Shown in pieces: positions 13,303 through 58,266 of a stretch of 64,000 nucleotides of DNA (within the stretch, counting starts at the first letter, position 1; every line of letters begins with the position of its first letter). A model generated the notes under the pieces. It made no database searches and was not told the DNA's origin. It saw only the letters and a list, made by a program, of their open reading frames with translations. A program made the translations under genes and the position numbers. The DNA lies in NCBI RefSeq assembly GCF_001017435.1, contig NZ_CP011371.1, forward strand, positions 3,410,001 through 3,474,000, read 5' to 3'. Origin of the DNA: Caldimonas brevitalea. GTDB lineage: Bacteria > Pseudomonadota > Gammaproteobacteria > Burkholderiales > Burkholderiaceae_C.

Positions 13303-13372
13303 GGCGGTGACTGGCCTCAGGCCGGCTCGCACCAGGACACGCTGGCGCGCCGATGCGGCACGCGCGCGGGCG

Positions 13373-18064
<4,692 letters not shown>

Positions 18065-18490: not shown

Positions 18491-20386
<1,896 letters not shown>

Positions 20387-20406
20387 CCGGCCATGCAAGG
20401 TGTCGA

Positions 20407-21210: not shown

Positions 21211-21351
21211 GCTGTTTTCCGCGCTCTTGATCCAGGGTCGAACCGTCGACGATGTTAGGACCGCGACGGCGCCGGCACGGCGCAACCCCCTGCCGATGAC
21301 ACGGTGGGAGCGAGGCCACCGGCGGCGCCAAGCGGCAGGACGGCCTCGACT

Positions 21352-21531: not shown

Positions 21532-21636
21532 CCCATCGATGAGCACAAACGAATCACGCTTGCGACTCAGCGATGGGCCAGACGGCTTACCCGCCCGACC
21601 CGGACCTATCACCTGATTGAAGAACGGAGTAGCACC

Positions 21637-29346: not shown

Positions 29347-29411
29347 GCGACGGCAGTCTGCCCGATCTAAACCACACGGGCGCCCGCAGCCCTGCACACG
29401 AGGAGACCCAC

Positions 29412-30644
29412 ATGAGCAGCACGACCCGTATCGCCATCGGCCTGTGCCTGGCCGCCACCACCGCCCTGCCCGCCGCGGCGCAAACGCGTGCAGAGGTGAT
29501 CCACTGGTGGACGTCCGGTGGCGAGTCGGCCGCCGTCAAGGAACTGGCGGCCGCCTACAAGGCCGCCGGCGGCACCTGGGTGGACAGCGCGGTGGCCGGG
29601 GGCGAGTCGGCCCGGGCAGCCGCGATCAACCGCATCGTGGGCGGCAACCCGTCGACCGCGGCGCAGTTCAACACCTCCAAACAGTTCCATGACGTGATCG
29701 ACGCCGGCCTGCTCAACCACGTTGACGACGTCGCGCAGAAGAACCACTGGGACAAGCTGCTGCCGGCGCCCATCCTGAACAGCATCAAGGTCAAGGGCCA
29801 CTACTACGCGGTGCCGGTCAACGTGCACATGCCGGCGTGGTTCTGGTACTCCAAAACGGCGTTCGACATGGCCGGTATCAAAGAGGAGCCGAAGACCGCC
29901 GAGCAGCTGTTCGCGGCGCTCGACAAACTCAAGGCCGCCGGTGTGGTGCCGCTCGCCTTCGGCGGCCAGCCGTGGCAGGAAAAGCTCACCTTCGACGCCC
30001 TGCTCGCCCACCTGGGCGGCGCCGACCTGTATTTGAAGGTCTACCGCGACCGTGACCAGAAGGCGATCCAGTCGGAGGCCTTCAAGCAGGTCCTGCTGTC
30101 GTTCAAGCGGCTGAAGGCGTACGTGGACGGGGGCGCCGCGGGCCGCAACTGGAACGACGCCACCTCGATGGTGATCGCCGGCAAGGCCGGTGTGCAGATC
30201 ATGGGCGACTGGGCCAAGGGGGAGTTCCAGGCCGCACGGCAAACCGCCGGCAAGGAGTTCGGCTGCTTCCCGGGACTGGGGCCCAGGTCGCCTTACATCA
30301 TCGCCGGCGACGTTTTCGTGTTCCCCAAGACCAGCGATCCGAACGCCATCAAGGCGCAGCATCTGCTGGCCGCCACCATCACGGCACCGGCCGCACAGGT
30401 GGCCTTCAGCAACCGAAAAGGCTCGATCCCGATCCGCACCGACGTCGATGCATCGGCGATGGATGTGTGCGCGCAGCAGGGCCTGCAGGTGATGAAAGAC
30501 GCCTCCCGCCACCTGCCCAACCCTGAAATGCTGGTGTCGCCCGACATCGCCGGCGTGCTGCAAGACATCATCACCAAGTACTGGAACACGCAGCAGCCGG
30601 TGGACGAGGTGGTCAAGGCCATCGGCGCGGCCGTGAAGGGCTGA
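29412..30644 (+). CDS. sugar ABC transporter substrate-binding protein
   Basis: A 410-residue periplasmic protein (signal peptide ending PAAAQ). It belongs to the family 1 binding proteins (COG1653); EVIHWWTSGGESAAVKEL is the N-terminal signature of the glucose-type GtsA/ThuE group. It captures the sugar for the two permeases and ATPase that follow. AGGAG lies seven bases before the ATG. The beta-glucosidase upstream suggests a beta-linked disaccharide as ligand, although GtsA-like proteins often bind glucose or mannose; the sequence alone does not settle it. Confidence 0.92.
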   Translation: MSSTTRIAIGLCLAATTALPAAAQTRAEVIHWWTSGGESAAVKELAAAYKAAGGTWVDSAVAGGESARAAAINRIVGGNPSTAAQFNTSKQFHDVIDAGLLNHVDDVAQKNHWDKLLPAPILNSIKVKGHYYAVPVNVHMPAWFWYSKTAFDMAGIKEEPKTAEQLFAALDKLKAAGVVPLAFGGQPWQEKLTFDALLAHLGGADLYLKVYRDRDQKAIQSEAFKQVLLSFKRLKAYVDGGAAGRNWNDATSMVIAGKAGVQIMGDWAKGEFQAARQTAGKEFGCFPGLGPRSPYIIAGDVFVFPKTSDPNAIKAQHLLAATITAPAAQVAFSNRKGSIPIRTDVDASAMDVCAQQGLQVMKDASRHLPNPEMLVSPDIAGVLQDIITKYWNTQQPVDEVVKAIGAAVKG

Positions 30645-30674
30645 GGCCCCCCGACCGACCCTGAAGGCGCCGTC

Positions 30675-30719
30675 ATGAGCCCCGCTCGGCCAGTGTGCGG
30701 CATGGAGGTCATCGAATGA
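30675..30719 (+). other. 14-codon micro-ORF overlapping the permease start
   Basis: ATG at 30675 (GAAGG upstream) reads MSPARPVCGMEVIE and stops in TGA at 30717-30719, overlapping the permease ATG at 30716 as ATGA. Probably a translational-coupling device or chance; it is not assumed to make a functional peptide. Confidence 0.35.
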
Positions 30720-31627
30720 ACAGAACCCGGCGCCGCCCTGTGCGACTGCATCGATGGGCCGCCTACACGGCCATGCTGCCGATGGCTGCCACCGTGCTGC
30801 TGGCCTATGTCGGCACGGTCGCCTGGTCGGTCAGGGTGTCGATGAGCAGTTCGCGCAGCCTGCCGGTCGACGATTTCGTCGGCCTTGCACAGTACAGCCG
30901 GCTGTTCGGCAGCGACCGTTGGCTGCTGTCACTGGAAAACGTCGCGCTGTTCGGCGTCCTGTTCATCGGAGCCTGTTTGGTGCTGGGTTTCCTGCTGGCC
31001 GTCTGCATCGATCAGCAGGTCGCCGGCGAAGGTGCGCTGCGCACCGTCTTCCTGTACCCCTACGCGATGTCGTTCGTCGCCACCGGCCTCATCTGGCAAT
31101 GGATGTTGAACCCGGAGCTGGGGCTGCAGGCCAGCGTGCGCAGCCTCGGCTTCGAGCACTTCCACTTCGACTGGATCGTCAGCCAGGACAAGGTGATGTA
31201 TGCCGTCGTGCTGGCCGCCGTCTGGCAGGCCTCGGGGCTGGTGATGGCGCTGATGCTCGCGGGCTTGCGCGGTATCGACGACAGCCTCTGGAAGGCGGCG
31301 CGTCTCGACGGCATCCCGACATGGCGGGTCTACCTGAACATCGTGCTGCCCCTGCTCGGTCCGTCGATCGCCACCGCGGTGGTGCTGTTGTCGGTCAGCG
31401 TCGTCAAAGTATTCGACGTGGTGGTGGCGATGACGCAAGGCGGCCCGGGGGTGGCCAGCGAGGTGCCGGCCAAGTTCATCATGGATCACTTGTTCGGCCG
31501 CTCCAACATCGGCCTGGCCTCGGCCGCGTCGACGGTGTTGCTGCTGACGGTCCTGGCCTTGCTGGCCCCGTGGCTGTATGCGCGCCAACGCGCCGCACGC
31601 CGCGAGGCACCAGGAGGGGCCCGATGA
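30716..31627 (+). CDS. sugar ABC transporter permease (MalF-like)
   Basis: A 303-residue inner-membrane protein with six predicted helices and the EAA loop of ABC permeases (SLWKAARLDGIPTWRVYLNIV). First helix near residues 18-40. It pairs with the next permease to form the channel of the sugar importer. GGAGG is seven bases before the ATG. An in-frame GTG at 30695 is less likely. The stop overlaps the next start by ATGA, so the two permeases are translationally coupled. Confidence 0.92.
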   Translation: MNRTRRRPVRLHRWAAYTAMLPMAATVLLAYVGTVAWSVRVSMSSSRSLPVDDFVGLAQYSRLFGSDRWLLSLENVALFGVLFIGACLVLGFLLAVCIDQQVAGEGALRTVFLYPYAMSFVATGLIWQWMLNPELGLQASVRSLGFEHFHFDWIVSQDKVMYAVVLAAVWQASGLVMALMLAGLRGIDDSLWKAARLDGIPTWRVYLNIVLPLLGPSIATAVVLLSVSVVKVFDVVVAMTQGGPGVASEVPAKFIMDHLFGRSNIGLASAASTVLLLTVLALLAPWLYARQRAARREAPGGAR

Positions 31628-32541
31628 GCACGCTGACGACCGGCCTGTCCGCCGCAAGACCGGCCCTGCCCAGCCGTGCCCGGCGCCGCCGCACCACCAC
31701 CCCGGCCCGCTGGGGCCTGTATGCCTTTCTGCTCGGAGCGGCGGCGTTTTTCCTGCTGCCGCTCTACGTGATGCTCATCACCTCGGTGAAACCGATGGAG
31801 GAGATCCGCCTCGGCAACTTGTTCTCGCTGCCGGTGAAGATGACGCTGGAGCCCTGGGCGGTGGCGTGGGCCGGCGCCTGCACCGGGCTGCAGTGCGAGG
31901 GCATCCGCGGCGGTTTCGTCAATTCGCTGCTGATCGTGGTGCCGAGCACCGCCGTCTCGATTTTCCTGGGCGCGCTGAACGGCTACGCGCTGTCGTTCTG
32001 GCGGCCGCGCGGCGGGCAGTGGCTGTTCGGCGTTCTGCTGCTGGGCGCCTTCGTGCCCTACCAGGTCATCATGTTCCCGCTGGTACGAGCTTTTGCCGCG
32101 TTGTCGCTGTTCGGCACACTGCCGGGCATCGTGCTGATCCACACGGTGTTCGGCATGCCGGTGATGACGCTGCTGTTCCGCAACTACTACGCGTCGATCC
32201 CGGCCGAGCTGTTCAAGGCCGCACGCATCGACGGCGGTGGCTTTTGGCGCATCTTCTTGCAACTAATGTTGCCGATGTCGCTGCCGATCATCGTGGTGGC
32301 GGTGATCATGCAGGTCACCGGCATCTGGAACGACTTCATCCTGGGCTTGGTGTTCGCCGGCCGGGACCACCTGCCGATGACGGTGCAACTCAACAACGTC
32401 ATCAACACCACCACCGGCGAACGCCTCTACAACGTCAACATGGCGGCCACCCTGCTCACCTCGCTGGTGCCGCTGGTCATTTACCTGGTGTCGGGCCGCT
32501 GGTTCGTGCGCGGCATCGCGGCCGGGGCCGTGAAAGGCTGA
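31624..32541 (+). CDS. sugar ABC transporter permease (MalG-like)
   Basis: A 305-residue inner-membrane protein with six helices and the EAA loop ELFKAARIDGGGFWRIFLQL followed by LPMSLPIIVV. The start at 31624 overlaps the previous stop by four bases. The first 30 residues are Arg/Ala-rich and cytosolic. It is the second half of the transport channel. An insert with two Cys (GACTGLQCEGIRGG) after the first periplasmic segment is typical of GtsC-type glucose permeases. The ATPase gene follows after five bases. Confidence 0.92.
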   Translation: MSTLTTGLSAARPALPSRARRRRTTTPARWGLYAFLLGAAAFFLLPLYVMLITSVKPMEEIRLGNLFSLPVKMTLEPWAVAWAGACTGLQCEGIRGGFVNSLLIVVPSTAVSIFLGALNGYALSFWRPRGGQWLFGVLLLGAFVPYQVIMFPLVRAFAALSLFGTLPGIVLIHTVFGMPVMTLLFRNYYASIPAELFKAARIDGGGFWRIFLQLMLPMSLPIIVVAVIMQVTGIWNDFILGLVFAGRDHLPMTVQLNNVINTTTGERLYNVNMAATLLTSLVPLVIYLVSGRWFVRGIAAGAVKG

Positions 32542-32546
32542 ACTGC

Positions 32547-33629
<1,083 letters not shown>

Positions 33630-38012: not shown

Positions 38013-40136
38013 ATGCGTCCTGACGTTTCGCGCTTTCCCGCCCTCTCTGTCCTCGCCACGGCCTGTGCCGCCTTGTGCGGCCTGCCCGATACCGCCGCGG
38101 CCCAGTCCGCCTCTGCCGACACCGCGCTGCCGGAGGTCAGGGTCTCCGGGCAGCGCAGCCGCAGCTTCACGTCGAACAGCGTGCAGGTGGGAACCTTCCG
38201 CGACCAGGACCCGCTCGACGTGCCGATGACCAACAACGCGGTCACCCGCGAGGTGCTCGATGCACAAGGCGCACGCACGCTCTACGAGGCCTTGCGCAAT
38301 ACCGCCGGGGTGACGCGCTCGCAACTCAACGGCGCCACCTACGACAACATCTCGATCCGCGGCATCCTGGTCGAAAACCGCGGCAACCACCGGCTCAACG
38401 GCTCGCTGCCGATCATCAACCTGGTCGAGGTGCCGCTCGAGAACAAGGAGCGCGTCGAGGTGTTGAAAGGCGCTTCGTCGCTCTACTACGGCTTCATCCC
38501 GCCGTCGGGCATCGTCAACTACGTCACCAAGCGGCCCACGGCGCAGGCGCTGAGCAGTGTCACCACCTCGGTCAACCAGCACGGCGGGGCCGACCTGCAC
38601 ATGGATGTGAGCCGGCGTTTCGGGCCCGAGGGCACGATGGGACTACGGGTCAATGCGGCGGCGGGCAAGGTCGAGACGGGGGTGGAGAAGGTCAAGGGCG
38701 ACCGTTCGCTGGCCTCGCTCGCCTGGGATTGGAAGGTCAGCCCCAAGCTGAATCTGAAGTTCGACCTCGAGCACTATCGCAAGGACGTCAGCGAACCGCC
38801 CGCGCTGACTGCCACCACGCAGGTGCCGCCCATGCCGGCCAACGACTTCAACCTCGGCGACGAGTGGCAGCGCTACAAGGGCGCCGCCACCAACATGCTG
38901 TTGCGGGCCGACGTGGCCTTGAACGACACCTGGCTGCTGACGCTGGAGGCCGGTCGCGCGCGCACCGTGCGCGACCGGCGCTACGCGTCGTTCACGCTGC
39001 AGAACCCCGCCACCGGTGCCGGCACGCTGCAACAGAACTTCGTCGACGACCAGAGTTACGTGAACCAGAACCTGCGCGCCGAAGTGTCCGGCCGGGTGGC
39101 CACCGGCCCGCTCCAGCATGAGCTGACGGCCGGTGTCACGCGCAACCGGCGCCATGACGACGCGCTCAACTACGACAGAGTCAACCGTTCGCAGAATCTG
39201 TACCAGCCCGTGGCGCTGCCCGAATTGCCCCTGCCGGCCGCGAGCGGCGATAACGACACCGAGATCGTCGACACCGGGCTGTACCTCTCCGACCGGTTGA
39301 TCCTCAATGACCAGTGGCAGGTGCTGGCCGGCGTCCGGCACACCGACTACCGCTACGACTCGACACGCCGCGTCTTCGCCAGCGCCGCGTCGTCCGACAC
39401 CCGCTACGACACCTCGGCCACCACACCCAACGTGTCGCTGCTGTACAAGGCCACGGATGCACTGTCGGTGTATGCGAGCTACCTGGAAGGCCTGGAGGAA
39501 AGCGCCCAGCCCGGCGAGCGGAACGCCAACTACGGCGAATTCTTGCGCCCCGCGGTGAGCCGCCAGAAGGAGCTGGGCGTGAAGGCGCGGGTCGGCCGTG
39601 GCCTGTTGCTGCAGTCCGCCTATTTCGACATCGACCGCGAGCTGACGACCACCGAGGCCAGCACCATGCGTTTGCTGTTGGCCGGCCGCAGCCGCTCGCG
39701 CGGTGTGGAACTGTCGGCCGCGGGCGAGTTGAGCCCGCAGTGGTCGTTCATCGCATCGGCGCAGTGGCTGGACGCCGAGATCACCGAGTCTCGCGTCGCC
39801 GGCGAGCAAGGCAAGACGCCGGAGAACACGGCCAAACACACCGCGAGCCTGTTCGCTGAATACAAGCTTGCGGCAGTGCCGGGCTGGGCTGTGAATGCAG
39901 GCGTCTATCACGTCGGCAAGCGCGCGATCAACAACACCAACACCGGCTACGTCGGCAGCTATACCACCCTGTCGGCCGGCACGCGCTACACCACACAGTG
40001 GCAGGGCGTGCCGGTGACCTGGCAGGCCAACCTCGACAACGCCACCAACCGCGACTACTGGAGCACCGCCGGCAACGGCTTGGTGGGGGTGGGCCTGCCG
40101 CGCACCTTGCGTCTGGCGGCGAAGTTCGACTTCTGA
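38013..40136 (+). CDS. TonB-dependent siderophore receptor
   Basis: A 707-residue outer-membrane receptor. A signal peptide (about 30 residues, ending AAAQ) is followed by the plug domain (TLYEALRNTAGVTRSQL, YDNISIRGI, RVEVLKGASSLYYG, GIVNYVTKRP) and a 22-strand-type barrel ending LRLAAKFDF with terminal Phe. There is no N-terminal STN signalling domain, so it is a pure transporter. It imports a ferric siderophore; LYYGFIPPSGIVNYVTKRP is typical of the FhuA/FpvA-like group. Behind a palindromic Fur box, and followed after 3 bases by a PepSY-TM gene. Confidence 0.93.
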   Translation: MRPDVSRFPALSVLATACAALCGLPDTAAAQSASADTALPEVRVSGQRSRSFTSNSVQVGTFRDQDPLDVPMTNNAVTREVLDAQGARTLYEALRNTAGVTRSQLNGATYDNISIRGILVENRGNHRLNGSLPIINLVEVPLENKERVEVLKGASSLYYGFIPPSGIVNYVTKRPTAQALSSVTTSVNQHGGADLHMDVSRRFGPEGTMGLRVNAAAGKVETGVEKVKGDRSLASLAWDWKVSPKLNLKFDLEHYRKDVSEPPALTATTQVPPMPANDFNLGDEWQRYKGAATNMLLRADVALNDTWLLTLEAGRARTVRDRRYASFTLQNPATGAGTLQQNFVDDQSYVNQNLRAEVSGRVATGPLQHELTAGVTRNRRHDDALNYDRVNRSQNLYQPVALPELPLPAASGDNDTEIVDTGLYLSDRLILNDQWQVLAGVRHTDYRYDSTRRVFASAASSDTRYDTSATTPNVSLLYKATDALSVYASYLEGLEESAQPGERNANYGEFLRPAVSRQKELGVKARVGRGLLLQSAYFDIDRELTTTEASTMRLLLAGRSRSRGVELSAAGELSPQWSFIASAQWLDAEITESRVAGEQGKTPENTAKHTASLFAEYKLAAVPGWAVNAGVYHVGKRAINNTNTGYVGSYTTLSAGTRYTTQWQGVPVTWQANLDNATNRDYWSTAGNGLVGVGLPRTLRLAAKFDF

Positions 40137-40139
40137 ACC

Positions 40140-41267
40140 GTGGCCCGCGCAAAAGCACGCCAGGCATGGCGGCTGGCACACCGCTGGCTGGGGCTGAGCC
40201 TGGGCCTGTTGCTGCTGCTCTCGGGCCTCACGGGTGCGGCCCTCGTCGTCGCCCGGCCGCTCGACGCCTGGGCACATCCCGAGCTGTTCCGCGCCACCCC
40301 GGTGACCGGTGAGGTGCAGCTCGACGCGATCCGGCAGCGTCTGGTGCACGAGTTCGGCAGCGGCACCACCCTCACGTTCCGCCCGCCACGCGTGGCCGGC
40401 GAAGCCCTGCAGGTGTTTGTAAGAGGCGACGCCTGGCATGGCACCTTGCACCTGGACCCGGCCAGCGGCGACGAACTGGGCCGGCGTGGCGAACACGAGG
40501 GCGTGTTCAATTTCTTGTTCGAGCTGCACGCCACGCTGCTGCTGGAAGACACCGGCCGAGCAGTGCTTGCGACGGCCGTGCTCGCCTACCTGGTGCTGCT
40601 GGTGTCGGGCGTCGTGTTGTGGTGGCCGGCGCGCTGGTGCCATGCGGTACGCATCAAGCTCGATGCCGGGATGCTGCGCGCGCTGTTCGACTTGCACCGG
40701 GTCACCGGAGCGGCCCTGGGCCTCGGCATCCTGGTCAGCGTCGTGAGCGGCGCCTACATGGCGTGGCGGCCCCTGTCGGCCTGGGTCACCCAGGTCAGCG
40801 GCGGTGTCGCGCGATCCGCTCCTGCGCTGCCGGCTACCGCTGCGGCAAGCCAGCCCGTGTCGCTCGACGCAGTGGTGGCCGAGGCGCGCCGTCGCCTGCC
40901 GCAGGGGCAGCTCGGTTATGTGCAATGGCCGCCCGCAGGCAAGGCCGGGCGGGTGCGTCTGCGGCTGCCGGACGACCCGCACCCGAACGGCCTGAGTTCC
41001 GTCTACTTCGACCCACGCGACGGCGCGGTGCTGGCGGTGCACCGCTGGCACGAGCTCGACACCGGCGCGCGCGCCTACACCTGGGTCTATCCGCTGCACA
41101 TCGGCAGCCTGGGCGGGCCGTGGCAGACGGTGGTCAACCTGCTGTTCGGCGCCGCACTGGCCGGGCTCGGCGGCAGCGGGCTGGTGTTGTGGTGGCAGCG
41201 GCGCGCGCGCCCTGCCCCAGCGCGTGGACGCGCCGTCGGTGTGGAAGGAGCGCCGCCGAAAGGCTGA
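40140..41267 (+). CDS. PepSY-associated TM protein
   Basis: A 375-residue inner-membrane protein with a GTG start three bases after the receptor stop, so co-transcribed and possibly coupled. Helix 1 (LGLSLGLLLLLSGLTGAALV), helix 2 near residue 140 (LATAVLAYLVLLVSGVVLWW), helix 3 near 190 (GAALGLGILVSVVSGAYMAW) and helix 4 near 345 (LFGAALAGLGGSGLVLWWQ) enclose two periplasmic PepSY-like regions. Proteins of this type next to siderophore receptors (FpvG/FoxB-like) are thought to reduce or release iron from the siderophore in the periplasm. His residues (HRW, ELHATL, DLHRVTG) flank the helices, as in haem-binding members. Confidence 0.9.
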   Translation: MARAKARQAWRLAHRWLGLSLGLLLLLSGLTGAALVVARPLDAWAHPELFRATPVTGEVQLDAIRQRLVHEFGSGTTLTFRPPRVAGEALQVFVRGDAWHGTLHLDPASGDELGRRGEHEGVFNFLFELHATLLLEDTGRAVLATAVLAYLVLLVSGVVLWWPARWCHAVRIKLDAGMLRALFDLHRVTGAALGLGILVSVVSGAYMAWRPLSAWVTQVSGGVARSAPALPATAAASQPVSLDAVVAEARRRLPQGQLGYVQWPPAGKAGRVRLRLPDDPHPNGLSSVYFDPRDGAVLAVHRWHELDTGARAYTWVYPLHIGSLGGPWQTVVNLLFGAALAGLGGSGLVLWWQRRARPAPARGRAVGVEGAPPKG

Positions 41268-41280
41268 GAGGCTTTGCGGC

Positions 41281-42204
41281 TCAGCCCTGTCCCGCTCGCG
41301 GCGTCACGACCTGGCGCCCCTTCGCAGGCGCCACGGGCCTGGCGCCGCGTGCGGCCAGATGCAACCGGGCCCAACCGCGGCGCAACAGCAGTTGCCACAG
41401 TGCGGGCGTCAGCAGCCCCTGCGGAAACGGCCGCGGCCAGAAGAAGTTGACGTTGAGCGCATACCCGGACACCACAGTGACCTGATGGAACCACCCGACC
41501 GGGATGTAGAGCGACTCGCCCGGTTGCAACACGCACTGCCATCCGCGTGCGTTGCGCGCCAACGGAAAGCGCTCGAAATCGGGCTGGTTGGGGTCGAAGC
41601 GGCAATGGGTGCGTCCGGGCAGCTGGTACAGCCAGCGCGCCTGCGACGGCGGGTACAGCATGAAGTGCTTGCGGCCCGCCACCTGGACGTTGCAGTTGGG
41701 CGTCACGTCGGAATGCAGACCGCACGAGGTGCCCAGCACACCGCACCAGAAGATGGTGTCCACCGGCGCCTCGCGATACCACGGCGGCGTGCGCACATCG
41801 GCGAGCAGCTGCGGCAGGCATCGGTGCAGGTTGGCATCGAGGTAGTAGGAACACTCGAAGCCGGTGTCGCACACCGCCTGCGAGATGCGGCCGGGGTCGG
41901 CTGAGGCAGTGGCTTCGATGGCACGGAAATCGGGCGCCTGTGCCAGTTCCAGCACCCAGTCGAAGTACTGCGAGAAGGTGATGCGCCCGCCTTGCGACAG
42001 GTTCTGGTAGATGTTGCGCGGTGCCCCTGTCGCCTCACGGACGGCCACTGACGTGCCGCCCACGACGCGCTTGAGGTAGTCGGGCTGCCAACGTCTCAAC
42101 GCGGGCCAGTCATCGACGTTGCCCTCGACGACGCGCGGTTCTCGACTCCAGCGCGGCGGCCTGAAGCGGCGCGCATCGACCCTCGGGATGTCGATGGTGT
42201 CCAT
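41281..42204 (-). CDS. JmjC/cupin-8-like Fe(II)/2-oxoglutarate oxygenase
   Basis: A 307-residue cytosolic protein with the cupin-8/JmjC fold. The metal triad is visible as H164 and D166 in CGLHSDVTPN and H240 in VGWFHQVTVV; a Lys for 2-oxoglutarate follows in AGRKHFMLYPP, and PGESLYIPVGWFH is the classic JmjC strand. Enzymes of this family hydroxylate amino-acid side chains of proteins or peptides, or tRNA bases. It is 25 bases downstream of a 100-residue protein and divergent from a lantibiotic dehydratase, so a peptide-tailoring role is plausible but unproven. Alternative: an unrelated protein hydroxylase. Confidence 0.87.
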   Translation of the reverse strand: MDTIDIPRVDARRFRPPRWSREPRVVEGNVDDWPALRRWQPDYLKRVVGGTSVAVREATGAPRNIYQNLSQGGRITFSQYFDWVLELAQAPDFRAIEATASADPGRISQAVCDTGFECSYYLDANLHRCLPQLLADVRTPPWYREAPVDTIFWCGVLGTSCGLHSDVTPNCNVQVAGRKHFMLYPPSQARWLYQLPGRTHCRFDPNQPDFERFPLARNARGWQCVLQPGESLYIPVGWFHQVTVVSGYALNVNFFWPRPFPQGLLTPALWQLLLRRGWARLHLAARGARPVAPAKGRQVVTPRAGQG

Positions 42205-42229
42205 CTCGCGCCGCCCCTGCCTCGCCCGC

Positions 42230-42532
42230 TCAGGCCTGCGGGTTGATCACGTCCTCACCAAAGACAGGCGGCCTGTCGCAGGTCCAGAGGCTGTGTCCCT
42301 GGGTCTCGATCAATCGCTCCCAGAGGTTCAGGTCACGCACCGTCTCGCGCGTCAGCGGCAGCTTGCGCTTGCCGTCGGCCGACGTGGTGCCCTCATACAT
42401 CTTGCCCGCCAGTTCCAGCACGCCGGCCAGCAGCGTCTGCTCTTGCAGGCTCAGGCTGGACGCCGCCCATTGCGACAGTTTTTCGGTCAGGCGGGTGACG
42501 TCGTCGTCGGTGACGCACGGGTTCGGTGACAT
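42230..42532 (-). CDS. 100-residue protein next to the LanB gene, candidate RiPP substrate
   Basis: A 100-residue protein with a strong ribosome-binding site (AAGGGAGC). Residues 8-46 are predicted helical and acidic (TRLTEKLSQWAASS, then LSLQEQTLLAGVLELAG), like the leader regions of many modified peptides. The rest contains LNLWERLIETQGHSLWTCD and PPVFGEDVINPQA, with Thr61, Thr64, Thr77, Ser81, Thr84 and Cys85 as possible modification sites. There is no Gly-Gly cleavage site and only one Cys in the second half, so a lanthionine product is not obvious. Family not recognised. The position upstream of a JmjC gene and opposite a LanB is the main argument for a precursor role. Confidence 0.68.
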   Translation of the reverse strand: MSPNPCVTDDDVTRLTEKLSQWAASSLSLQEQTLLAGVLELAGKMYEGTTSADGKRKLPLTRETVRDLNLWERLIETQGHSLWTCDRPPVFGEDVINPQA

Positions 42533-42735
42533 GAGCAGCTCCCTTCGTGGTGGGCCCGAGGCAGGACGGCATCGCGTTCGGTCTCGGGTCTGGCTTCATG
42601 TTCGTTCACGCCTGTGGGCCGTCCCATCCGTGAACACCCGATGAGCACCTGCGCGCAGGGCCCCTCTGAAGGGGGATGCCGGACCAGGCAACACCGCGTA
42701 CCGTAGGCAGCGATGGCGTGAAGGAGAGCCTGCCG
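42533..42735. promoter_or_regulatory. divergent promoter region of the LanB/JmjC locus
   Basis: 203 bases between divergent starts, expected to hold both promoters. I see no clear operator. GAAGGGGG (before the ATG at 42676) and AAGGAGA (before the ATG at 42736) are two ribosome-binding sites in front of the dehydratase. Confidence 0.5.
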
Positions 42736-45700
42736 ATGCAGCACCCGTCGAAGCCCAAGGATGTGCAGCGCGCCAAGCCGGGGCTGCGCTGCGCCGGCTT
42801 TTTCGTCCTGCGCACCCCGGCGCTGCCGTGGGACGAGATCCACGCGTGGAGCGCGGAGCTGTCGGCCCGCCGGACCTGGGATACCGACGGGGCGTTGGCT
42901 GACGCGCTGGCGCTGGACCGACAGCGGTTGCGACAGCGCTTGCGCAGCATCATCCAACGCGCCGAGGTGCAGGCCGCGCTCGAGGTCGCTTCCCCCGGCC
43001 TGTGCCACCGACTCGGGCCGTGGCTTGCCGGCTCCCCCGGCCGCGCCGCCCTGCAACTCGAGGCGACGTTGGTGCGCTACCTGATGCGCATGGCGGGACG
43101 TGCGACACCTTTCGGCCTCTTCGCCGGCACCAGCACCGGCCGCCTTTCCGACCGTGTGCACCTTGTGGTGCCGCCCCGGCGACACCACGTACGCCACACA
43201 CGGCTCGACCTCGAGCACGTGCTGCAGCTGGCCGCGCACTTGTCGCAAGACCCCAGCTTGCGCTCGCAGCTGCGCTTTATCGCCGCCTCCTCTGTCTACG
43301 AGGTGGCAGGACGCTGGCGTTACCACGAACTCCGATTGCAAGGCCGCACCCGCAGCTGCCACCTGGTCGACGTCGAGCCCACCGGCTATCTGCGCGTGGT
43401 GCTGCAGCGTGCGGGTGATGCCCCAGGGGCGACGCTGGACGAGTTGGCGCAAGCCTTGTGCGCGCAGTTCGACGACGTCGACCTGACGCAGGCGCACGAC
43501 TACCTGCTCGAGCTGGTCGACGCCGGCTTGCTGCGCTCGCCCCTGGACCTCGTCTTGACCGGCCCTGACCCGGTGCAGGCCCTGGCGGACCGCCTGCGCG
43601 AGCTGCCCGACGGCCGGGTGCCGGCCGCCACGCTGGACGAGGTGCAAGACGCGCTGGGTGAACTCGACCGCAGCCGCGACGACGACGATACGCGCCGCCG
43701 ACGGCTGGCGCACGTCGAGGCCCGCTTGCGCAGCCTGCCAGGCGTCACCGACCCGGCCCGTTTGCTCCGCATCGACCTGCACAAACCGGGCGGTGACCCA
43801 CAGCTGTCGCACCGGGTGGCTGACGAGGTGGCCGCGGGTGCCGAACTGCTGGCCCGGCTCGCCGTCGACGGTCATGAGCGGGCGCTGGACGACTTCGTGC
43901 ATCGTTTCGAACAGCGCTATGGCGACCGCGAGGTGCCACTGCTGGAAGCGCTCGACGAAGACGGCGGGCTCGGCTTCGGCGACGACGGTGTGTCGGCCAC
44001 CGCGGACACGGCGCCCTTGCTCGACGGCTGGGCTTTCGCGCCACAGGTTCCGGCAGCCCCGGCCTGGACACGGCGCGACGCGGTGTTGCTGCGTCGGCTG
44101 GGTGAGACGCTACAGCAGCAGGCCCTCGAGATGGAGCTGACCGAGGACGACCTGCACGACCTGACCGAGGGACAGCGGCCGCAACTGCCGCCGGGCATGG
44201 GCGTGCTGGTCACGCTGGCACCGCGCCCCGGGGCGGCCCTCGCCGAACCGGACTACACGCTCCACCTGCGCCGCTGTCTCGGCCCCAGTTCCGTGCGCTT
44301 GTTGGGCCGCTTCTGTCAGGGGGACGCCGAACTGGAGCGCCTTGTGCGCGCCGCGCTGCGCGCCGAAGAGGCCTGCGACCCGGATGCCGTGCATGCCGAG
44401 GTAGTGCACCTGCCGCAGGGCCGGGCCGGCAACGTGATGGCCCGACCGGTCTTGCGCGAATACGAGATCCCGGTGCTCGACCCGTCGGGCGCGCCGCAGG
44501 ACCGGCAGCTACCGCTGTCCGATCTGCTTGTTTCGGTCGACCGCGGCCGCATCCAATTGCGCTCGGCGCGCCTGGACCGGCGCGTGTTGCCCCACTTGTC
44601 CTGCGCCCATGCCTGGCGCCGCAGCAGTTGCAGCGCTTATCGATTTCTGGTCAGCCTGGCGGCACACGGCAGCGTGGAGGACGCCGGCTTTTCATGGGGC
44701 GCGCTTGCCGACGCGCCCTTTTTGCCGCGTGTGGTGCAAGGCCGGTTGGTGCTGTCGCTGGCCACCTGGAACCTGGCCGGACGCGAGATGCCGCCGGAGC
44801 CGGGGCCAGACGATGCCGCGCACTATGCCGCGCTGCAAATGTGGCGCGCGCGCCTGAAGCTGCCCCGCTTCGTCTGCCTCGAGGACGGTGACCTCACGCT
44901 GCCCGTCGATCTGGACAACTGCTTGTCGCTCGACAGCCTGGTGCAACAGGCTCGACGACGCGCTAGCGTCCGGCTCTGCGAGATGTTCCCGCCCCCGTCG
45001 GACCTCGTCGCCGAAGGTGAACAGGGGCACTACGTGCACGAGCTGGTGGTTCCCTGTGTCCGGGCAGCCGCGGTGGCAGCACCCGCGTTCGCGACGTCAG
45101 CGCCCCGCTGGCGGCATGAAGAGGCCGGCGACGACGAGGCGGCCACCGGCTGGCTCTATCTGAAGCTGTACTGCAGCGTGGCGGCACAGGACCGGCTGCT
45201 GTGCGAAGTGCTGCGACCGGCGATCGCGGCGTTGCGCCGCGAACCGGGTTTCGATCGCTGGTTTTTCGTTCGGTATGCCGACCCTGCGCCGCACCTGAGG
45301 CTGCGGCTGCGCGGCACCCCGGCATGGCTGTGGCGCGAAGCCGCGCCCCGGTTGTTTGCCGCATGTGGCGCCGCCGGCGACTGCATCCGCAGCATTGCGA
45401 CCGATCGCTACGTGCCGGAGCTGGTGCGCTACGGCGGCCCGGCGGGGCTCGATCTGTGCGAACAGCTGTTCGAAGCCGACAGCGATGCGACGGTGGCCCT
45501 CATCGCGGGCGAGCGCAACACCGGGGATCGCTGGCGGCTCGCACTGCTCGGCATCGCGGCCTGGTTGGAGGCGTTTCGGTTCGACCCCGTGCAGCGACGT
45601 GACGTGGCCCGGGCCTGCCGCGATACGCAGCTGACGCACTTCGCCGGCCTGCCGGATCTGCAGCGTCGGCTCGGCGCCACCTGCCGGCGCCACCGGGCGG

Positions 45701-45996
45701 AGGTGCAGGCGCTGCTCGACACACCACCGCCGCACATGCGGCGCGCCGCGCAGACGCTGAGCCTGCGCACGCAAGCAGCCACGGCGGCGATCGCGGGGCT
45801 GCAACAGCTGGCAGCAGCAGGACGGCTTTCGTCTTCCCTCCCGACGCTGGCCGGCCACCTCGTGCACATGTCGGCCCACCGCATGTTCCGGCACGCCGCC
45901 AATCTGCAGGAGTTGGTGCTCTACGACCTGCTATGCCGGGCCTGGGATGCGCGCCTGCAACAACGGCAGCAGGCCGAGGCGACCGACCTCGGTTGA
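42736..45996 (+). CDS. LanB-type lantibiotic dehydratase, full length
   Basis: A 1086-residue class I lantibiotic dehydratase. The N-terminal glutamylation domain (about residues 1-800) starts with AGFFVLRTPALPWDEI and includes YLMRMAGRATPFGLFAGTS, the most recognisable LanB signature, and FLPRVVQGRLVLSLATWNL. The C-terminal 280 residues are the elimination or thiopeptide-type biosynthesis domain (GWLYLKLYCSVAAQDRLLCE, WFFVRYADPAPHLRLRL, YVPELVRYGG). LanB uses glutamyl-tRNA to dehydrate Ser/Thr of a precursor peptide. The ATG at 42736 has AAGGAGA well spaced; the in-frame ATG at 42676 is an alternative. No LanC, protease or exporter gene lies within 15 kb on either side, so the product may not be a classical lantibiotic. 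Confidence 0.93.
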   Translation: MQHPSKPKDVQRAKPGLRCAGFFVLRTPALPWDEIHAWSAELSARRTWDTDGALADALALDRQRLRQRLRSIIQRAEVQAALEVASPGLCHRLGPWLAGSPGRAALQLEATLVRYLMRMAGRATPFGLFAGTSTGRLSDRVHLVVPPRRHHVRHTRLDLEHVLQLAAHLSQDPSLRSQLRFIAASSVYEVAGRWRYHELRLQGRTRSCHLVDVEPTGYLRVVLQRAGDAPGATLDELAQALCAQFDDVDLTQAHDYLLELVDAGLLRSPLDLVLTGPDPVQALADRLRELPDGRVPAATLDEVQDALGELDRSRDDDDTRRRRLAHVEARLRSLPGVTDPARLLRIDLHKPGGDPQLSHRVADEVAAGAELLARLAVDGHERALDDFVHRFEQRYGDREVPLLEALDEDGGLGFGDDGVSATADTAPLLDGWAFAPQVPAAPAWTRRDAVLLRRLGETLQQQALEMELTEDDLHDLTEGQRPQLPPGMGVLVTLAPRPGAALAEPDYTLHLRRCLGPSSVRLLGRFCQGDAELERLVRAALRAEEACDPDAVHAEVVHLPQGRAGNVMARPVLREYEIPVLDPSGAPQDRQLPLSDLLVSVDRGRIQLRSARLDRRVLPHLSCAHAWRRSSCSAYRFLVSLAAHGSVEDAGFSWGALADAPFLPRVVQGRLVLSLATWNLAGREMPPEPGPDDAAHYAALQMWRARLKLPRFVCLEDGDLTLPVDLDNCLSLDSLVQQARRRASVRLCEMFPPPSDLVAEGEQGHYVHELVVPCVRAAAVAAPAFATSAPRWRHEEAGDDEAATGWLYLKLYCSVAAQDRLLCEVLRPAIAALRREPGFDRWFFVRYADPAPHLRLRLRGTPAWLWREAAPRLFAACGAAGDCIRSIATDRYVPELVRYGGPAGLDLCEQLFEADSDATVALIAGERNTGDRWRLALLGIAAWLEAFRFDPVQRRDVARACRDTQLTHFAGLPDLQRRLGATCRRHRAEVQALLDTPPPHMRRAAQTLSLRTQAATAAIAGLQQLAAAGRLSSSLPTLAGHLVHMSAHRMFRHAANLQELVLYDLLCRAWDARLQQRQQAEATDLG

Positions 45997-46073: not shown

Positions 46074-48305
46074 TCAGAAGCTCACGGTCTGTTCCGCCGA
46101 GCACACCGCGGTCGAGCCGGCCTGGCACACCTTATAGGTCCAGGTGCCGGCCGGTTGCAGGTCGTTGAAGCTGCCGTCGTTGCGCACCGTCCGCAGCAGG
46201 CTGCCGTTGCGGTACACATCCACACGGTCCCCGGTGGCGCCGGTCCATTGCAGCTGGACCCAGCCGAACAACCACAGCTTCTTGACGTTGGCGGTCAGCC
46301 CGATGGTGGCCGGGCGCTTGACGGTCAGGTCCTGGCTGACCGTACGCGTCGCGGTGTTGTCCGAGACCGTCAGGGTCACCTTGTAGCTGCCGGGGCCGCT
46401 GAAGGTGTGGCCGGTCTTGACGCCGCTGGCATGGCCGCCGTCACCGAAGTTCCAGGCATAGGCCACGATGTTGCCGGTCGAGGCGCTGGCGTCGAACTGG
46501 CAGGTCAGCGCCGTGCAGTCGGCCGTGAAGGCGGCCTTCAGCGGCACCGGCGGCACCGCCTGGCTGACGTTCAGGAAGGCGGCGGACACCGGGCCGTATT
46601 GACCGGAAGCGTCGCGCGAGCGCACATAGACCAGATGGCGTCCGGTCTTCAGGCCCTTGGTGTTGAGCACCCCCTGGAAGCGTTCGGACTTGGCGTCGTA
46701 GCGCCCGTCCACCGGCTGCAGCGGCACCGCCACGGCGCCCGGCACCCACGGCGGCACGTCGATGTAGGCCTCGACGGCCGTGATCGGGTGCGTCGGCTCG
46801 GTGCCGTTGCTGTTGTTGTAGCGCTCGTCGGTCGCAGCACCTTCGATCCACGCCTCGGTGCCGGCCGGCACGCCGCCCTCGTCATAGATCAGCAGCGCGT
46901 TGACGTCCGGGCCACCGGGCAACAGGTACGGCGCGCGCGACACCTTGGCGGCGTAGACCAGCGCCGGCAGGTTGTCCGGCCGGATGGTGTTCTGGTAGGC
47001 GGTGCAGTCCTGGAAGAAGCTGGTGCCCAGCTCGAAGGTGTAGGCCGCCACCCCCAGCTCGCCATAGCTCGGGCCGTCGCTGGTGCCGTCGGTCGGGTAC
47101 AGGCCGATCGACTGGGTCGGCGTGTACTTGTTGAAGAAGGCGAAACGCCGCCCCAGTGTTTGCAGGGCATCGCCATTCGGCGCCGGCTCGGTGCCGGTGC
47201 CCCACGGCCACAGCACCAGCTGGCTGTAGCTGTGGATGTCGAGGTGGATGCCGCTGGTGTCGGGCGGTGCCGCGTCGGTGCGCGCCGGGCCGCGCCGGTC
47301 CGGCCAGATCTTGCGGATGTAGTTCTCCAGCGCCGCGACCTCAGGCTCGGACGAGGGGCTGGGCCCGCGGTAGACCATCGAGCATTGCTCGCCGCTCGAC
47401 CCTTCGTCGTTGGTGACGTTCCAGTCGAAGGTGAAGTTGCGGTTCAGGTCCGCCCCCGGCCAGTCGCCGGTCGGGCAGTAGTTCGTGTTGACGTTCTTGC
47501 GCCAGAGGATGCCCGCCTCGGCCTTCTTGCGGCCGTCGGGGTTGGTGTGCAGCAGGAAGTGCACCTCATGGTGATCGACCAGCCAGGTGGCGTCGGCGTC
47601 CTTGCCGTAGCCGTCGATCAGCCAGCGGGCGAAGTCCAGCGCGAGCGGCGCAGTGGCGTACTCACGCGCATGGATGGCGGAGTTGATCAGCAGCTTGGGC
47701 TTGTCGCCGGTCACCGCCTTGTTGGTCACCTTCAGCACGCGCAGGTCGTAACCGCCCTGCCCCTGTAGCTTCTGCCAGGATTGGCCGATCGAGAACCACT
47801 CGGCGAGGTTGGGGTGCCGGGTCACGATGTCTTCGGCGGCCGCAAAGGTCTCCTCGACCGTCTGATAGCAGGCATAGCCGGGAATGGCCTGAATGCCGAC
47901 GTCGGTCGCCGCCGCCGATGCGCTCTTGTTGCGCTGCCGGGCCGCATTGGCCGACTCGATGTCGGCGAGGAACTGGTCGCGCTTGGCGATGAACTCGGGC
48001 GCCGGCTCGATGCGGAAGCCGAAGCGCTGCAGCTTGGCGATCTCGTTGCGGCGCAGTTCCAGCACCAAATAGCCCTGGGCGTAATCGGCCTGCAGCAGGT
48101 TGGCGTGGAAGCTGATGGCCGCCTTGCGGCCGGTCGCGGCGTCGGGGAAGTAGGCCTTGTAGATCTCGGTGCGCTGGCGCTCCTGCGCGCGCAACTGGCT
48201 CGGTGCGCTGCTGTGCTCGGGCCCGGCAGAGGCCAGCGGCGCCGCGAGCGCGAAGCCGGCGGAAACCAGCAGCGTCGCACCTCTCGAAAGCATCGTCTTC
48301 TTCAT
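46074..48305 (-). CDS. secreted M14 zinc carboxypeptidase with PKD domain (copy 2)
   Basis: A 743-residue paralog of the enzyme at 10229-12460, same length and same layout: signal peptide (MKKTMLSRGATLLVSAGFAL), N-terminal propeptide-like region (AQERQRTEIYKAYFPDAATG), M14 domain with NSAIHAREYATA, HTNPDGRKKAE, DIHSYSQLVLWPWG and YTFELGTSFFQ, PKD domain (YAWNFGDGGH) and a C-terminal fibronectin-like module. All zinc and catalytic residues are kept. The two copies differ widely at silent positions and are in opposite orientation, so this is an old duplication. GAGGA precedes the ATG at 48305. Secreted peptidase, perhaps for nutrient use. Confidence 0.9.
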   Translation of the reverse strand: MKKTMLSRGATLLVSAGFALAAPLASAGPEHSSAPSQLRAQERQRTEIYKAYFPDAATGRKAAISFHANLLQADYAQGYLVLELRRNEIAKLQRFGFRIEPAPEFIAKRDQFLADIESANAARQRNKSASAAATDVGIQAIPGYACYQTVEETFAAAEDIVTRHPNLAEWFSIGQSWQKLQGQGGYDLRVLKVTNKAVTGDKPKLLINSAIHAREYATAPLALDFARWLIDGYGKDADATWLVDHHEVHFLLHTNPDGRKKAEAGILWRKNVNTNYCPTGDWPGADLNRNFTFDWNVTNDEGSSGEQCSMVYRGPSPSSEPEVAALENYIRKIWPDRRGPARTDAAPPDTSGIHLDIHSYSQLVLWPWGTGTEPAPNGDALQTLGRRFAFFNKYTPTQSIGLYPTDGTSDGPSYGELGVAAYTFELGTSFFQDCTAYQNTIRPDNLPALVYAAKVSRAPYLLPGGPDVNALLIYDEGGVPAGTEAWIEGAATDERYNNSNGTEPTHPITAVEAYIDVPPWVPGAVAVPLQPVDGRYDAKSERFQGVLNTKGLKTGRHLVYVRSRDASGQYGPVSAAFLNVSQAVPPVPLKAAFTADCTALTCQFDASASTGNIVAYAWNFGDGGHASGVKTGHTFSGPGSYKVTLTVSDNTATRTVSQDLTVKRPATIGLTANVKKLWLFGWVQLQWTGATGDRVDVYRNGSLLRTVRNDGSFNDLQPAGTWTYKVCQAGSTAVCSAEQTVSF

Positions 48306-48571
48306 GGTGTCCTCGATACGAATGTGCACGATGGAATGAAACGGTTGCGGGGCGCGGTGCAACCCAAAAACCGCTGATCCCGCAGGGAACGCCGATCGTC
48401 CTCATCGAACATGACTTGGGGACCGTAATGTCCCTTCGAGGGGTGCGGCACAGCTGTAGTGAATTAGTAAGAATGGCTGCGAATTGCATGGTTACGAAGA
48501 GCGCTGCGATGCTTGACATCGCCAGGGCTCGCGTCAACAGTGGGTGGCCCGTGCCTGCGAGGTAAGTGCAG

Positions 48572-49195
48572 ATGCAACCACCTGACGGCGAGGTCGACCC
48601 CGTCGTTCCTCCGCTGCAAGACGACCTCGACACACTCGACGCTCACCGCCTGCTCGTCGTGTGCCTGTTCATCTCGTCGTTCGCGATCGGCACGCTCTAC
48701 CTGGCGGTGGGCTTGTTCTTCGCGGCGACCGGTGAAGGTGGGCGGGTCGTGACGCCCCTCACCGCCACCATCGTGGCAGGCGCCGGCGGTGGTTTCGTCA
48801 GCTGTTTGCGCCGGCTGTACGCCTTTCAGGACGTGTTTCCCCGCAAGGGATACGAGCGCTTGTTCCGCCGCATGAACTTCTATGTGCTGGCGTATTCCAG
48901 CGTGCCGGCCCTGGTCGGCATGATCGGCGCGGTCGTCGTCTACCTGGTGTTCGCCGCCGGCTTGCTGCAGGGCGATCTGTTTCCGGCCTTCGAGTGTGTC
49001 CATGGCACCTGTCAGAGTTTCCAGGACTTCATCCAGTACTGGAGTCCTACCGATGCCCAGGCGTATGCCAAAGCGATCGTCTGGGGGTTCATCGCCGGCT
49101 TCTCCGAGCGCCTCGTGCCGGACATCCTGAACCGCATCGGCAGTGGTCAGAGCGCGGGCCATGCGACCAAGGTCGACAAGCGGCAAGTGGAGTGA
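48572..49195 (+). CDS. membrane protein, 207 aa
   Basis: A 207-residue protein with four hydrophobic segments (about residues 28-52, 63-80, 106-135 and 165-180) and a soluble N-terminal tail rich in Asp/Pro. The segment GFIAGFSERLVPDILNRI near the C-terminus is a motif found in a group of uncharacterised bacterial membrane proteins. Two Cys lie in a loop between segments 3 and 4 (ECVHGTC). GAGGTAAG precedes the ATG at 48572; a GTG two codons earlier is possible. Function unknown. Confidence 0.72.
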   Translation: MQPPDGEVDPVVPPLQDDLDTLDAHRLLVVCLFISSFAIGTLYLAVGLFFAATGEGGRVVTPLTATIVAGAGGGFVSCLRRLYAFQDVFPRKGYERLFRRMNFYVLAYSSVPALVGMIGAVVVYLVFAAGLLQGDLFPAFECVHGTCQSFQDFIQYWSPTDAQAYAKAIVWGFIAGFSERLVPDILNRIGSGQSAGHATKVDKRQVE

Positions 49196-49487
49196 GCCCC
49201 TAGGGTTAACCCTCAACATCCGGCGGCTCTCAACTGCCTTAACTTTGCCCCGGCAGGGTCAAGCGCTAGATGCCGCCATCGTGTGCGTCTTTGAGACACG
49301 TCAGAGGCCCCGCCGCACCCCCCTGAACGAGTGGGCAAAGCAGCGTGAACTTGTCGCCACTTCGTTCGTTTCTTTCTGTAACCTGGCGCCCCTGGGACAC
49401 AGTACCACGCGAGCGATCGCTAGCATCGGCCCATACCAAGTGACCAGTCCAGGTCATCTCAACGACAACAACCAAGGGGGCACCTCG

Positions 49488-50459
49488 ATGGGTGATCTCA
49501 AGCGACGCGCGTTCCGCATCGCCGTGATGCTTTCGGCCATGGCGGCCGGTTCCGCGCAAGCGCAAACGCCGACCGGCGAACCGATTTCGCCGCTGCCCGC
49601 CAAACCCGCGGCGGATCCGCGCAAGGTAGCCCTCGGCTCCCGACTGTTCCGTGACGTGCGTTTCGCGAAGGACAACTCGGTGTCCTGCGTGAGCTGCCAC
49701 AGCTTCCAGCATGGCGGCGCCGATCCGCGGCCGCTGTCGGTCGGGGCCGGCGGCAAGACCCATGTCTTCAACACCCCGACGGTCTGGAACTCGGGCCTGA
49801 ACTTCCGGCAGCAGTGGACCGGCGGCGCGGCCTCGCTCGAAGAGCTGACGGGCCTGGTGGTCAAGAGCCCCCGGGTGTTCAACTCGAGCTGGGAAGAGGT
49901 GCTGGGCAAGCTGAACCAGGACGCACAGCTGACGCGCGATTTCAAAGACTTGTATCCCGAGGGCATGACCGCGCGCAGCATCTCCGACGCGCTGGCCGTG
50001 TACCAGCGCTCGTTGCTGACGCCCTCGCGCTTCGACCGCTACCTGCAGGGCGATGCGAATGCCATCACCGCCATCGAGAAGCGCGGCTACGAGCGCTTCA
50101 AGGCGTATGGATGTGTCGGCTGCCACCAGGGCGTCAACATCGGCGGCAACATGTTCCAGCGTTTCGGCGCGATGGGCGACTACTTCAAGTCGCGCAGCGC
50201 CGCCGGCAAGCCGCTGACCGACGCCGACCAGGGCCGCTACAACGTCACCAAGAAACCCGAAGACCGCTATGTCTTCAAGGTGCCGAGCCTGCGCAACGTG
50301 GCGCTCACGCCGCCCTATTTCCACGATGCCTCGGCGAAGACGCTCGAGGAAGCCGTCGAGGTGATGTTCCGCTTCCAGTTGGGCCGCACCGCGCCGCGAG
50401 ACGACAAGGACGCGATCGTCAAGTTTCTCGGCAGCCTGAACGGCGAAATCAAGGAGTGA
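49488..50459 (+). CDS. di-haem cytochrome c peroxidase
   Basis: A 323-residue periplasmic protein (signal peptide ending AQAQ). Two haem c sites are present: CVSCH near residue 65 (NSVSCVSCHSFQHGG) and CVGCH near residue 210 (YGCVGCHQG). LGSRLFRDVRFAKD and PSLRNVALTPPYFHDAS are family signatures of the CcpA/MauG group, which reduces hydrogen peroxide using cytochrome c. Length is normal. The ribosome-binding region CAAGGGGG is seven bases from the ATG. A sensor kinase starts four bases after its stop, so the three genes 49488-53517 are probably one operon. Confidence 0.92.
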   Translation: MGDLKRRAFRIAVMLSAMAAGSAQAQTPTGEPISPLPAKPAADPRKVALGSRLFRDVRFAKDNSVSCVSCHSFQHGGADPRPLSVGAGGKTHVFNTPTVWNSGLNFRQQWTGGAASLEELTGLVVKSPRVFNSSWEEVLGKLNQDAQLTRDFKDLYPEGMTARSISDALAVYQRSLLTPSRFDRYLQGDANAITAIEKRGYERFKAYGCVGCHQGVNIGGNMFQRFGAMGDYFKSRSAAGKPLTDADQGRYNVTKKPEDRYVFKVPSLRNVALTPPYFHDASAKTLEEAVEVMFRFQLGRTAPRDDKDAIVKFLGSLNGEIKE

Positions 50460-58123: not shown

Positions 58124-58266
58124 AGGGGCGTCGCCGCGGCCGGGCCGGTACGGCACCCCGCCAACCGACGGCGCACAATGAGAGGCAGAACGCGGTGCCA
58201 GACCACGCCGCGACCTGCCCTCACCGCCCAGCCGTGCCGCTCAGGACGGCACAAGGAGCTGCCCTG

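Follow-up and report, generated by a model that had tools for sequence, protein, structure and literature searches.

Can a full-length LanB dehydratase act on a peptide where no LanC cyclase is encoded? The question is raised by a locus of Caldimonas brevitalea, a member of the Gammaproteobacteria, which we analysed within a stretch of 64,000 nucleotides (contig NZ_CP011371.1, positions 3,410,001 to 3,474,000; hereafter the window, numbered from its first letter). There a LanB gene lies beside genes for a JmjC-type oxygenase and a 100-residue protein, and an earlier note had proposed that the three form a minimal peptide- or protein-modifying system. We found the same three genes side by side at every one of six named loci, and we give a probability of about 0.62 to the reading that they make a ribosomally synthesized and post-translationally modified peptide (RiPP) that would be LanC-independent, hydroxylated, furnished with dehydroamino acids and perhaps spontaneously lanthionine-ringed. 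This reading joins what was observed (gene content, co-occurrence, catalytic residues, leader and core anatomy, the missing LanC match) to a chemistry taken from the enzyme families.

Results

Three adjacent genes recur in two phyla

The host genome is a single contig of 6,476,147 bases (completeness 100). The genes of the cassette lie in the window as follows.

41281-42204, minus strand: JmjC/Cupin_8 protein of 307 amino acids, a predicted 2-oxoglutarate-dependent hydroxylase (Cupin_8, 145 bits)
42230-42532, minus strand: candidate precursor peptide gene, 100 amino acids (open reading frame, homologues, conserved leader and core)
42736-45996, plus strand: LanB, full-length class I lanthipeptide dehydratase, 1086 amino acids (domains and catalytic residues)

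The two minus-strand open reading frames (ORFs) are separated by 25 bases and LanB is divergent from both, the layout given in the earlier note. The full length that the note had ascribed to LanB was borne out too, both domains of a class I lanthipeptide dehydratase being present (Lant_dehydr_N, PF04738, 507 bits; Lant_dehydr_C, PF14028, 191 bits). The longest LanB ORF opens at 42676 and would encode 1106 amino acids; the alternative ATG at 42736 is the likelier start, since GGAG precedes it and the resulting 1086 amino acids equal the length of the database protein P0023.

Precursor, JmjC and LanB genes are adjacent in five other named loci, which makes six of six with the window, in two phyla.

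L002: Streptomyces violaceus (LanB interrupted by runs of N)
L003: Streptomyces cinerochromogenes
L005: Rhizobium johnstonii, plasmid
L007: Rhizobium beringeri, plasmid (near-identical to L005)
L006: Cupriavidus oxalaticus, plasmid

The genes are divergent in the window and in Rhizobium, and in tandem in Streptomyces and Cupriavidus. Tandem genes overlap or nearly touch, save at one gap in Cupriavidus: in S. cinerochromogenes the precursor gene, ending at 10159, overlaps the JmjC start at 10122, and the JmjC stop at 11018 is followed by the LanB ATG at 11020; in C. oxalaticus the precursor gene ends 87 bases ahead of JmjC, and the JmjC stop and LanB start have base 13320 in common. Differing gene orders with overlapping or nearly touching genes argue for function rather than descent alone. 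Adjacency across genera, in Rhizobium, Cupriavidus and Streptomyces, was what the earlier note had named as support for a peptide-modifying three-gene system, and that the three genes are a real, recurring cassette is well supported. LanB homologues without the two partners, which the note had held to speak against a system, do occur among LanBs generally, but none was found in this JmjC subfamily, in which all six loci are complete.

Leader and core of the 100-residue protein

Relatives of the 100-residue protein were sought among 5.8 billion proteins. The first search returned 22 proteins at E<=1e-3, the window's own included, and a second round with a profile (A2) built from 14 diverse precursors returned 49 at E<=0.01, the earlier 22 among them. 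These 49, together with the S. violaceus peptide, are the 50 sequences in which the core was surveyed. The window protein comprises four segments.

42377-42532, minus strand: N-terminal extension, residues 1-52 (alignments A2 and A3)
42329-42370, minus strand: leader motif KRKLPLTRETVRDL, residues 55-68, of the form LxLxRE...L (35-row alignment)
42278-42292, minus strand: core pentapeptide SLWTC, residues 81-85 (survey of 50 sequences)
42233-42277, minus strand: C-terminal follower DRPPVFGEDVINPQA (alignment)

Residues 55-68 agree with the leader pattern of class I lanthipeptides. Across the 35 aligned rows L58 and L60 never vary; R62, L68, S81, L82, W83, T84 and C85 reach at least 90% conservation. 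The distance from LxLxR to the core is 23 residues in 37 proteins and 21 in 10, that is, in 47 of the 48 core-bearing database proteins; P0161, the sole exception, lacks the Arg of LxLxR, and the S. violaceus peptide has its LxLxR 21 residues ahead of the core. The NCBIfam model lant_leader_L1a matches 7 of the 35 members, the strongest at 18.8 bits (E 0.0014) for a curated cut-off of 22, and gave no match to the window precursor itself; three Spirosoma lanthipeptide precursors, taken as positive controls, score 40.4-51.5 bits.

The core hardly varies. It is SLWTC in 48 of the 49 readable sequences and SLWAC in one (P0155), the remaining sequence being a fragment that stops short of it. Ser81 and Cys85 are unvarying in the 49, and residue 86 is Asp in 36, Pro in 7, Asn in 5 and Glu in 1. 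The follower ends in an INP-type tail in many long-type members and in another tail in the Streptomyces type; one member stops two residues past the core. The N-terminal extension, which has no convincing match in Pfam or NCBIfam, belongs to the long type (named members come from Rhizobium, Sinorhizobium and Cupriavidus) and is missing from the Streptomyces type, whose precursors of about 60 amino acids are leader, core and tail and nothing else. Because leader and core are conserved and the gene recurs in Rhizobium, Cupriavidus and Streptomyces, the small protein is the likely substrate. The earlier note had foreseen a small substrate; the 100-residue protein is, however, better described as a leader-and-core precursor of a RiPP than as a small protein modified as such.

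The two enzymes

The window LanB, the only one in the host genome, also matches the thiopeptide-type C-domain model TIGR03891 (179 bits) and is related to the solved structures 5ehk (MibB), 9g04 and NisB. All 12 positions presumed to be catalytic from their roles in NisB (R138, R142, T144, D178, D367, R545, R875, R877, E915, R918, Y919 and H1064, in the 1106-residue numbering) are present, and each is retained in at least 116 of 124-125 aligned LanBs, the alignment consisting of the six locus proteins and 119 of 273 search matches (those listed, the window's own aside). Weak PqqD-like scores at residues ~241-287 (E 0.19 and 0.075) coincide with the expected position of the RiPP recognition element (RRE) of a LanB, which is suggestive only.

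In a quick LanB tree, with SH-aLRT support only, the window protein groups with that of Rhizobium (98), on a long Rhizobium branch. A 12-row set (99) comprises the LanBs of the window, Rhizobium and Cupriavidus (the last 41% identical to the window's), three from metagenomes and five of unknown surroundings. The metagenome LanBs P0024, P0026 and P0027 are probably co-located with the precursors P0155, P0153 and P0156, as the contigs are equal in size (18627, 14803 and 8523). The two Streptomyces LanBs stand elsewhere in the tree, beside the Sphaerisporangium LanB P0132. Either JmjC and precursor were joined to a LanB on at least two occasions, or cassettes that would bridge the groups went unseen. 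As the Streptomyces and proteobacterial LanBs are not one clade, JmjC and core are better markers of the family than LanB descent.

The JmjC protein aligned to TYW5 and JMJD5, and FIH matched too. It has the HxD...H iron triad of a JmjC-type 2-oxoglutarate oxygenase, with putative Fe ligands H164, D166 and H240, which like K179 are invariant across the six loci; the JmjCs of the five other loci are 56-60% identical to it. Among the 40 of 41 plasmid JmjC matches listed, only three reach at least 59% identity, and these are the three plasmid loci; none of the others exceeds 35.8%.

LanC in the host genome and at the other loci

That no LanC lies near the cassette, as the earlier note had it, holds for the whole single-contig genome: LANC_like had no match there (the control matched in 1 of 14 genomes), so that the LanC of a class I lanthipeptide system was not found in this host. 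The other loci differ. HopA1-LanC is encoded at 14215-16548 in R. johnstonii, 1.0 kb from JmjC (Pfam scan), and the ORFs of R. beringeri contain a LanC match in apparently the same arrangement. A kinase-LanC lies 2.6 kb past LanB in C. oxalaticus, beside a 2-oxoglutarate-Fe(II) oxygenase. In S. violaceus a HopA1-LanC and an APH gene stand on the same contig, at a calculated distance of ~8 kb past LanB, and in S. cinerochromogenes the cassette is on contig C8 and the only LanC match on C13. The earlier note had held that a LanC always tracking with this LanB would speak against its proposal: no such tracking is seen in the window genome or in S. cinerochromogenes, but a LanC-domain gene does lie near the cassette at the other four loci. 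At those loci a borrowed cyclase may be at work. The window genome suggests that a LanC need not be encoded; a ring may form all the same.

We take HopA1-LanC with an APH kinase to be class V-like, and in the three loci that have such genes (two Rhizobium, S. violaceus) they look like a separate class V-like system, physically near the cassette and with different dehydration enzymes. The segment 14215-17959 of the R. johnstonii locus, on a conjugative plasmid, carries HopA1-LanC, an APH-type kinase and a 101-residue protein (P0170) with a Cys/Ser/Thr-rich end, and P0170 looks like the own, Cys-rich precursor of the Rhizobium HopA1-LanC system. In C. oxalaticus, 17041-21588 encodes a 394-residue unknown protein and the 2-oxoglutarate-Fe(II) oxygenase, whose N-terminal stretch is common to the neighbouring kinase-LanC fusion; this composition suggests that another RiPP-like unit adjoins the cassette. 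For contrast, the plasmid LanB loci L016-L018 all have a LanC, and two of them, L017 and L018, also encode an ABC transporter.

Rarity of the cassette

An exact-pattern scan (ELAGKMYE and QG[HW]SLWTC) of contigs from 84,980 species gave 17 stretches, two of them relatives; the patterns miss cores such as the RSESLWTC of Cupriavidus. In viral contigs the 26 pattern stretches included no relative. The precursor profile was found in 1 of 100 relatives (the window genome itself) and in 1 of 392 Streptomyces (that of L003), and the JmjC in 1 of 399 genomes of the same order at E<=1e-40 and 1 of 398 of the same phylum at E<=1e-50 (both times the window genome itself), and in 1 of 394 of the class of L003 at E<=1e-50 (its own genome). 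These genome draws overlap, with at most 5 candidates scored per genome for JmjC and at most 16 for the Streptomyces precursor draw. In eight congeners the cassette DNA had only two short, weak matches (97 bases in G008, 49 in G001).

The literature found, mostly without subscription papers, contains neither 'SLWTC' nor 'lantibiotic dehydratase' together with 'cupin_8', and the papers with both 'lantibiotic dehydratase' and 'JmjC' (PMC12710340, PMC12257519) deal, in their available parts, with other systems. The cassette is a real and rare LanB-based RiPP variant, undescribed in this literature, in which subscription papers were mostly outside the search and broad topics were sampled in part.

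Proposed pathway and competing explanations

The cassette suggests the following pathway. The RRE within LanB would bind the precursor leader, LxLxRE...L; LanB would then use glutamyl-tRNA to glutamylate Ser81 and Thr84 and eliminate them to dehydroalanine (Dha) and dehydrobutyrine (Dhb). JmjC would hydroxylate the side chain of a core residue or of one next to the core. Cys85 might stay free, be modified otherwise, or add without a dedicated cyclase to Dha81, closing a five-residue lanthionine ring, and an unlinked protease would cut off leader and follower, probably near the junction between QG and x-SLWTC. The invariance of Ser81 and Cys85 fits a thioether ring, whose closure could be spontaneous, or Dha with a free thiol. 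Ring A of nisin and NAI-107 is a Ser-x-x-x-Cys five-residue ring, and a Ser81-Cys85 ring would equal it in size and enclose Leu, Trp and a dehydro residue. Dehydration of Thr84 would be dispensable, judging from the SLWAC member, and Asp86 is not an obligatory JmjC target, as Pro, Asn or Glu takes its place in 13 of 49 sequences; by their invariance Leu82 or Trp83 appear better candidates.

Several points weigh against this pathway or the strength of its support. A LanC-domain gene lies within ~8 kb of the cassette in four of the five other loci, and the lant_leader_L1a match stays under the curated cut-off (18.8 against 22 bits). The conservation of SLWTC is in part selected for, search candidates having to share 5-residue words with the query, and P0155 implies that Thr84 can be dispensed with. 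Of the five loci, two (L005, L007) are near-copies, the LanB of L002 is broken by N runs, and the LanBs of the cassette do not form a single clade, since the label needs at least 5 changes on their tree.

The LanC-domain proteins near four of the five other loci, and the LanCs at all of L016-L018, would also be expected if the product were an ordinary class I lanthipeptide whose SLWTC ring is made by a LanC, the cyclase acting in trans or having been lost and the window copy being degenerate or borrowed. We find this unlikely: the complete host genome yields no LanC match, yet its LanB, JmjC and precursor genes are open, the single LanC match of S. cinerochromogenes is on a separate contig, and the HopA1-LanC of Rhizobium and S. 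violaceus, with APH-type genes, probably belongs to the separate class V-like system. More improbable still is that LanB serves as a transferase only, by glutamylation or aminoacyl transfer without elimination, the modified peptide being the product or a consumed scaffold. To our knowledge peptide aminoacyl-tRNA ligases (PEARLs) have no elimination domain and their pathways no LanC; the window LanB, in contrast, has the full domain with E915, R918, Y919 and H1064. That LanB relatives can serve as such ligases is nonetheless a precedent, and the available parts of PMC9016710 and PMC10979984 describe PEARL pathways (3-thiaglutamate, ammosamides) that share a LanB-family enzyme and a scaffold peptide with the cassette.

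The earlier note had suggested that the modified substrate may be kept in the cell. A further reading is that the 100-residue protein is stable inside the cell, its C-terminal SLWTC being hydroxylated and dehydrated for a structural or regulatory role. The N-terminal extension is indeed conserved in the long type, and no lantibiotic-type exporter was noticed beside the six loci, where most flanking ORFs outside the window were unscanned; the Streptomyces members, however, with ~60 amino acids, no extension and only leader, core and tail, make this very improbable. That the three genes are neighbours by chance is hardly credible, for although the neighbouring genes in the window, TonB receptor/PepSY and M14 peptidase, appear to be unrelated, the same three genes are adjacent in six of six named loci from two phyla. 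A bolder version of the LanC-independent reading is possible, and we hold it only tentatively: a new RiPP family defined by a LanB without any LanC and a JmjC-hydroxylated, near-fixed SLWTC. Its product would be one conserved small molecule (a signal, cofactor or metal ligand) for a fixed target and not a diversifying antibiotic, as a core that scarcely changes between Proteobacteria and Streptomyces would suggest.

Genes around the cassette

In the window 34 ORFs between 27.9 and 63.5 kb were scanned, small ORFs excepted.

29220-33629: ABC sugar-type importer (solute-binding protein, permease, MalK-like ATPase)
46074-48362, minus strand: M14 zinc carboxypeptidase, convergent with LanB and ending 77 bases beyond its stop
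57979-59769: M32 carboxypeptidase

The earlier note had seen no protease or transporter within 15 kb, which goes too far in view of the M14 and M32 enzymes and the importer, but neither a protease nor an exporter of lantibiotic type was recognised among the 34 ORFs. A sub-threshold ABC2_membrane_3 match (E 0.02) lies at 48566-49195. Export from elsewhere in the genome is possible, as a C39 peptidase-type protein is encoded far off (G000:C1, 182911-183273).

The M14 carboxypeptidase was considered as the maturation protease and rejected: similar DNA occurs elsewhere in the host genome and in cassette-free congeners. Its gene resembles the window segment 10345-12172 (74% DNA identity over 1.8 kb), with further matches in congeners, and no such carboxypeptidase was seen in what was read of the other loci. 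A TonB receptor/PepSY pair (38013-41267) was likewise rejected as belonging to a metallophore system; the pair converges on JmjC, is unseen in the other loci and is matched in four of eight congeners without the cassette (G002, G003, G004, G008). A horizontal island was also dismissed, the G+C content of the cassette (~0.67-0.73) being near that of its flanks (0.63-0.72). About 3 kb past LanB, 49143-50459 encodes a MauG-type di-haem cytochrome c peroxidase (CCP_MauG, 143 bits). MauG itself targets tryptophan residues in a protein of its own pathway, and nothing ties the window copy to the cassette.

DUF6895 genes are present in the loci of S. cinerochromogenes and C. oxalaticus (Pfam) and, from ORF reading alone, apparently in that of S. 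violaceus. We rejected DUF6895 as an obligatory part, with 0 matches in the host genome, yet no control genome matched either. A 2026 title cited in the available part of PMC13352647 links an epimerase of the DUF6895 family to the modification of lasso peptides. Two small genes stand beside DUF6895 in both loci (L003, 15013-15948; L006, 10198-11076), a pair of 107 and 125 amino acids being alike by eye; none of the four gave a Pfam match at E<=0.1. In S. cinerochromogenes (16894-20087) the DUF6895 gene is flanked by a LodA-type gene, with N and C domains of L-lysine epsilon-oxidase, and by a FAD-dependent halogenase/monooxygenase-like gene. That locus also has an oppositely oriented methyltransferase gene after LanB; beside the window LanB none was seen.

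Discussion

With class I lanthipeptides (NisA/NisB) the cassette shares a full LanB with catalytic residues and a Ser/Thr...Cys core, and its leader follows the LxLx(K/R)E pattern, with lant_leader_L1a scores below the cut-off. It differs in having no LanC match in the host genome and no adjacent exporter or lantibiotic protease found, and in possessing a JmjC hydroxylase, a near-invariant five-residue core and an N-terminal extension of the precursor. For hydroxylation of a RiPP residue by a cupin-like enzyme there is precedent in the biphenomycin-type clusters, where, according to the available part of PMC12257519, the enzymes PbsQ and BpmG are cupin-like, as in the cassette, and PbsQ hydroxylates an ornithine formed in the RiPP core; those clusters contain an MNIO, a B12-radical SAM enzyme and an arginase, and that part mentions no LanB. 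The available part of PMC12710340 reports bacterial homologues (~30% identity) of RRE-fused JmjC_2 (PF08007) in RiPP-like contexts; the fusions are fish and algal, the JmjC family is another one, and no LanB cassette is described there.

If the LanC-independent reading is true, the cassette would be a three-gene, easily reconstituted pathway that shows full LanB action where no LanC is encoded. JmjC hydroxylation would join LanB chemistry, on a product core that barely varies between phyla. With a five-residue SLWTC target, known partners and few genes, the pathway would be directly testable by co-expression.

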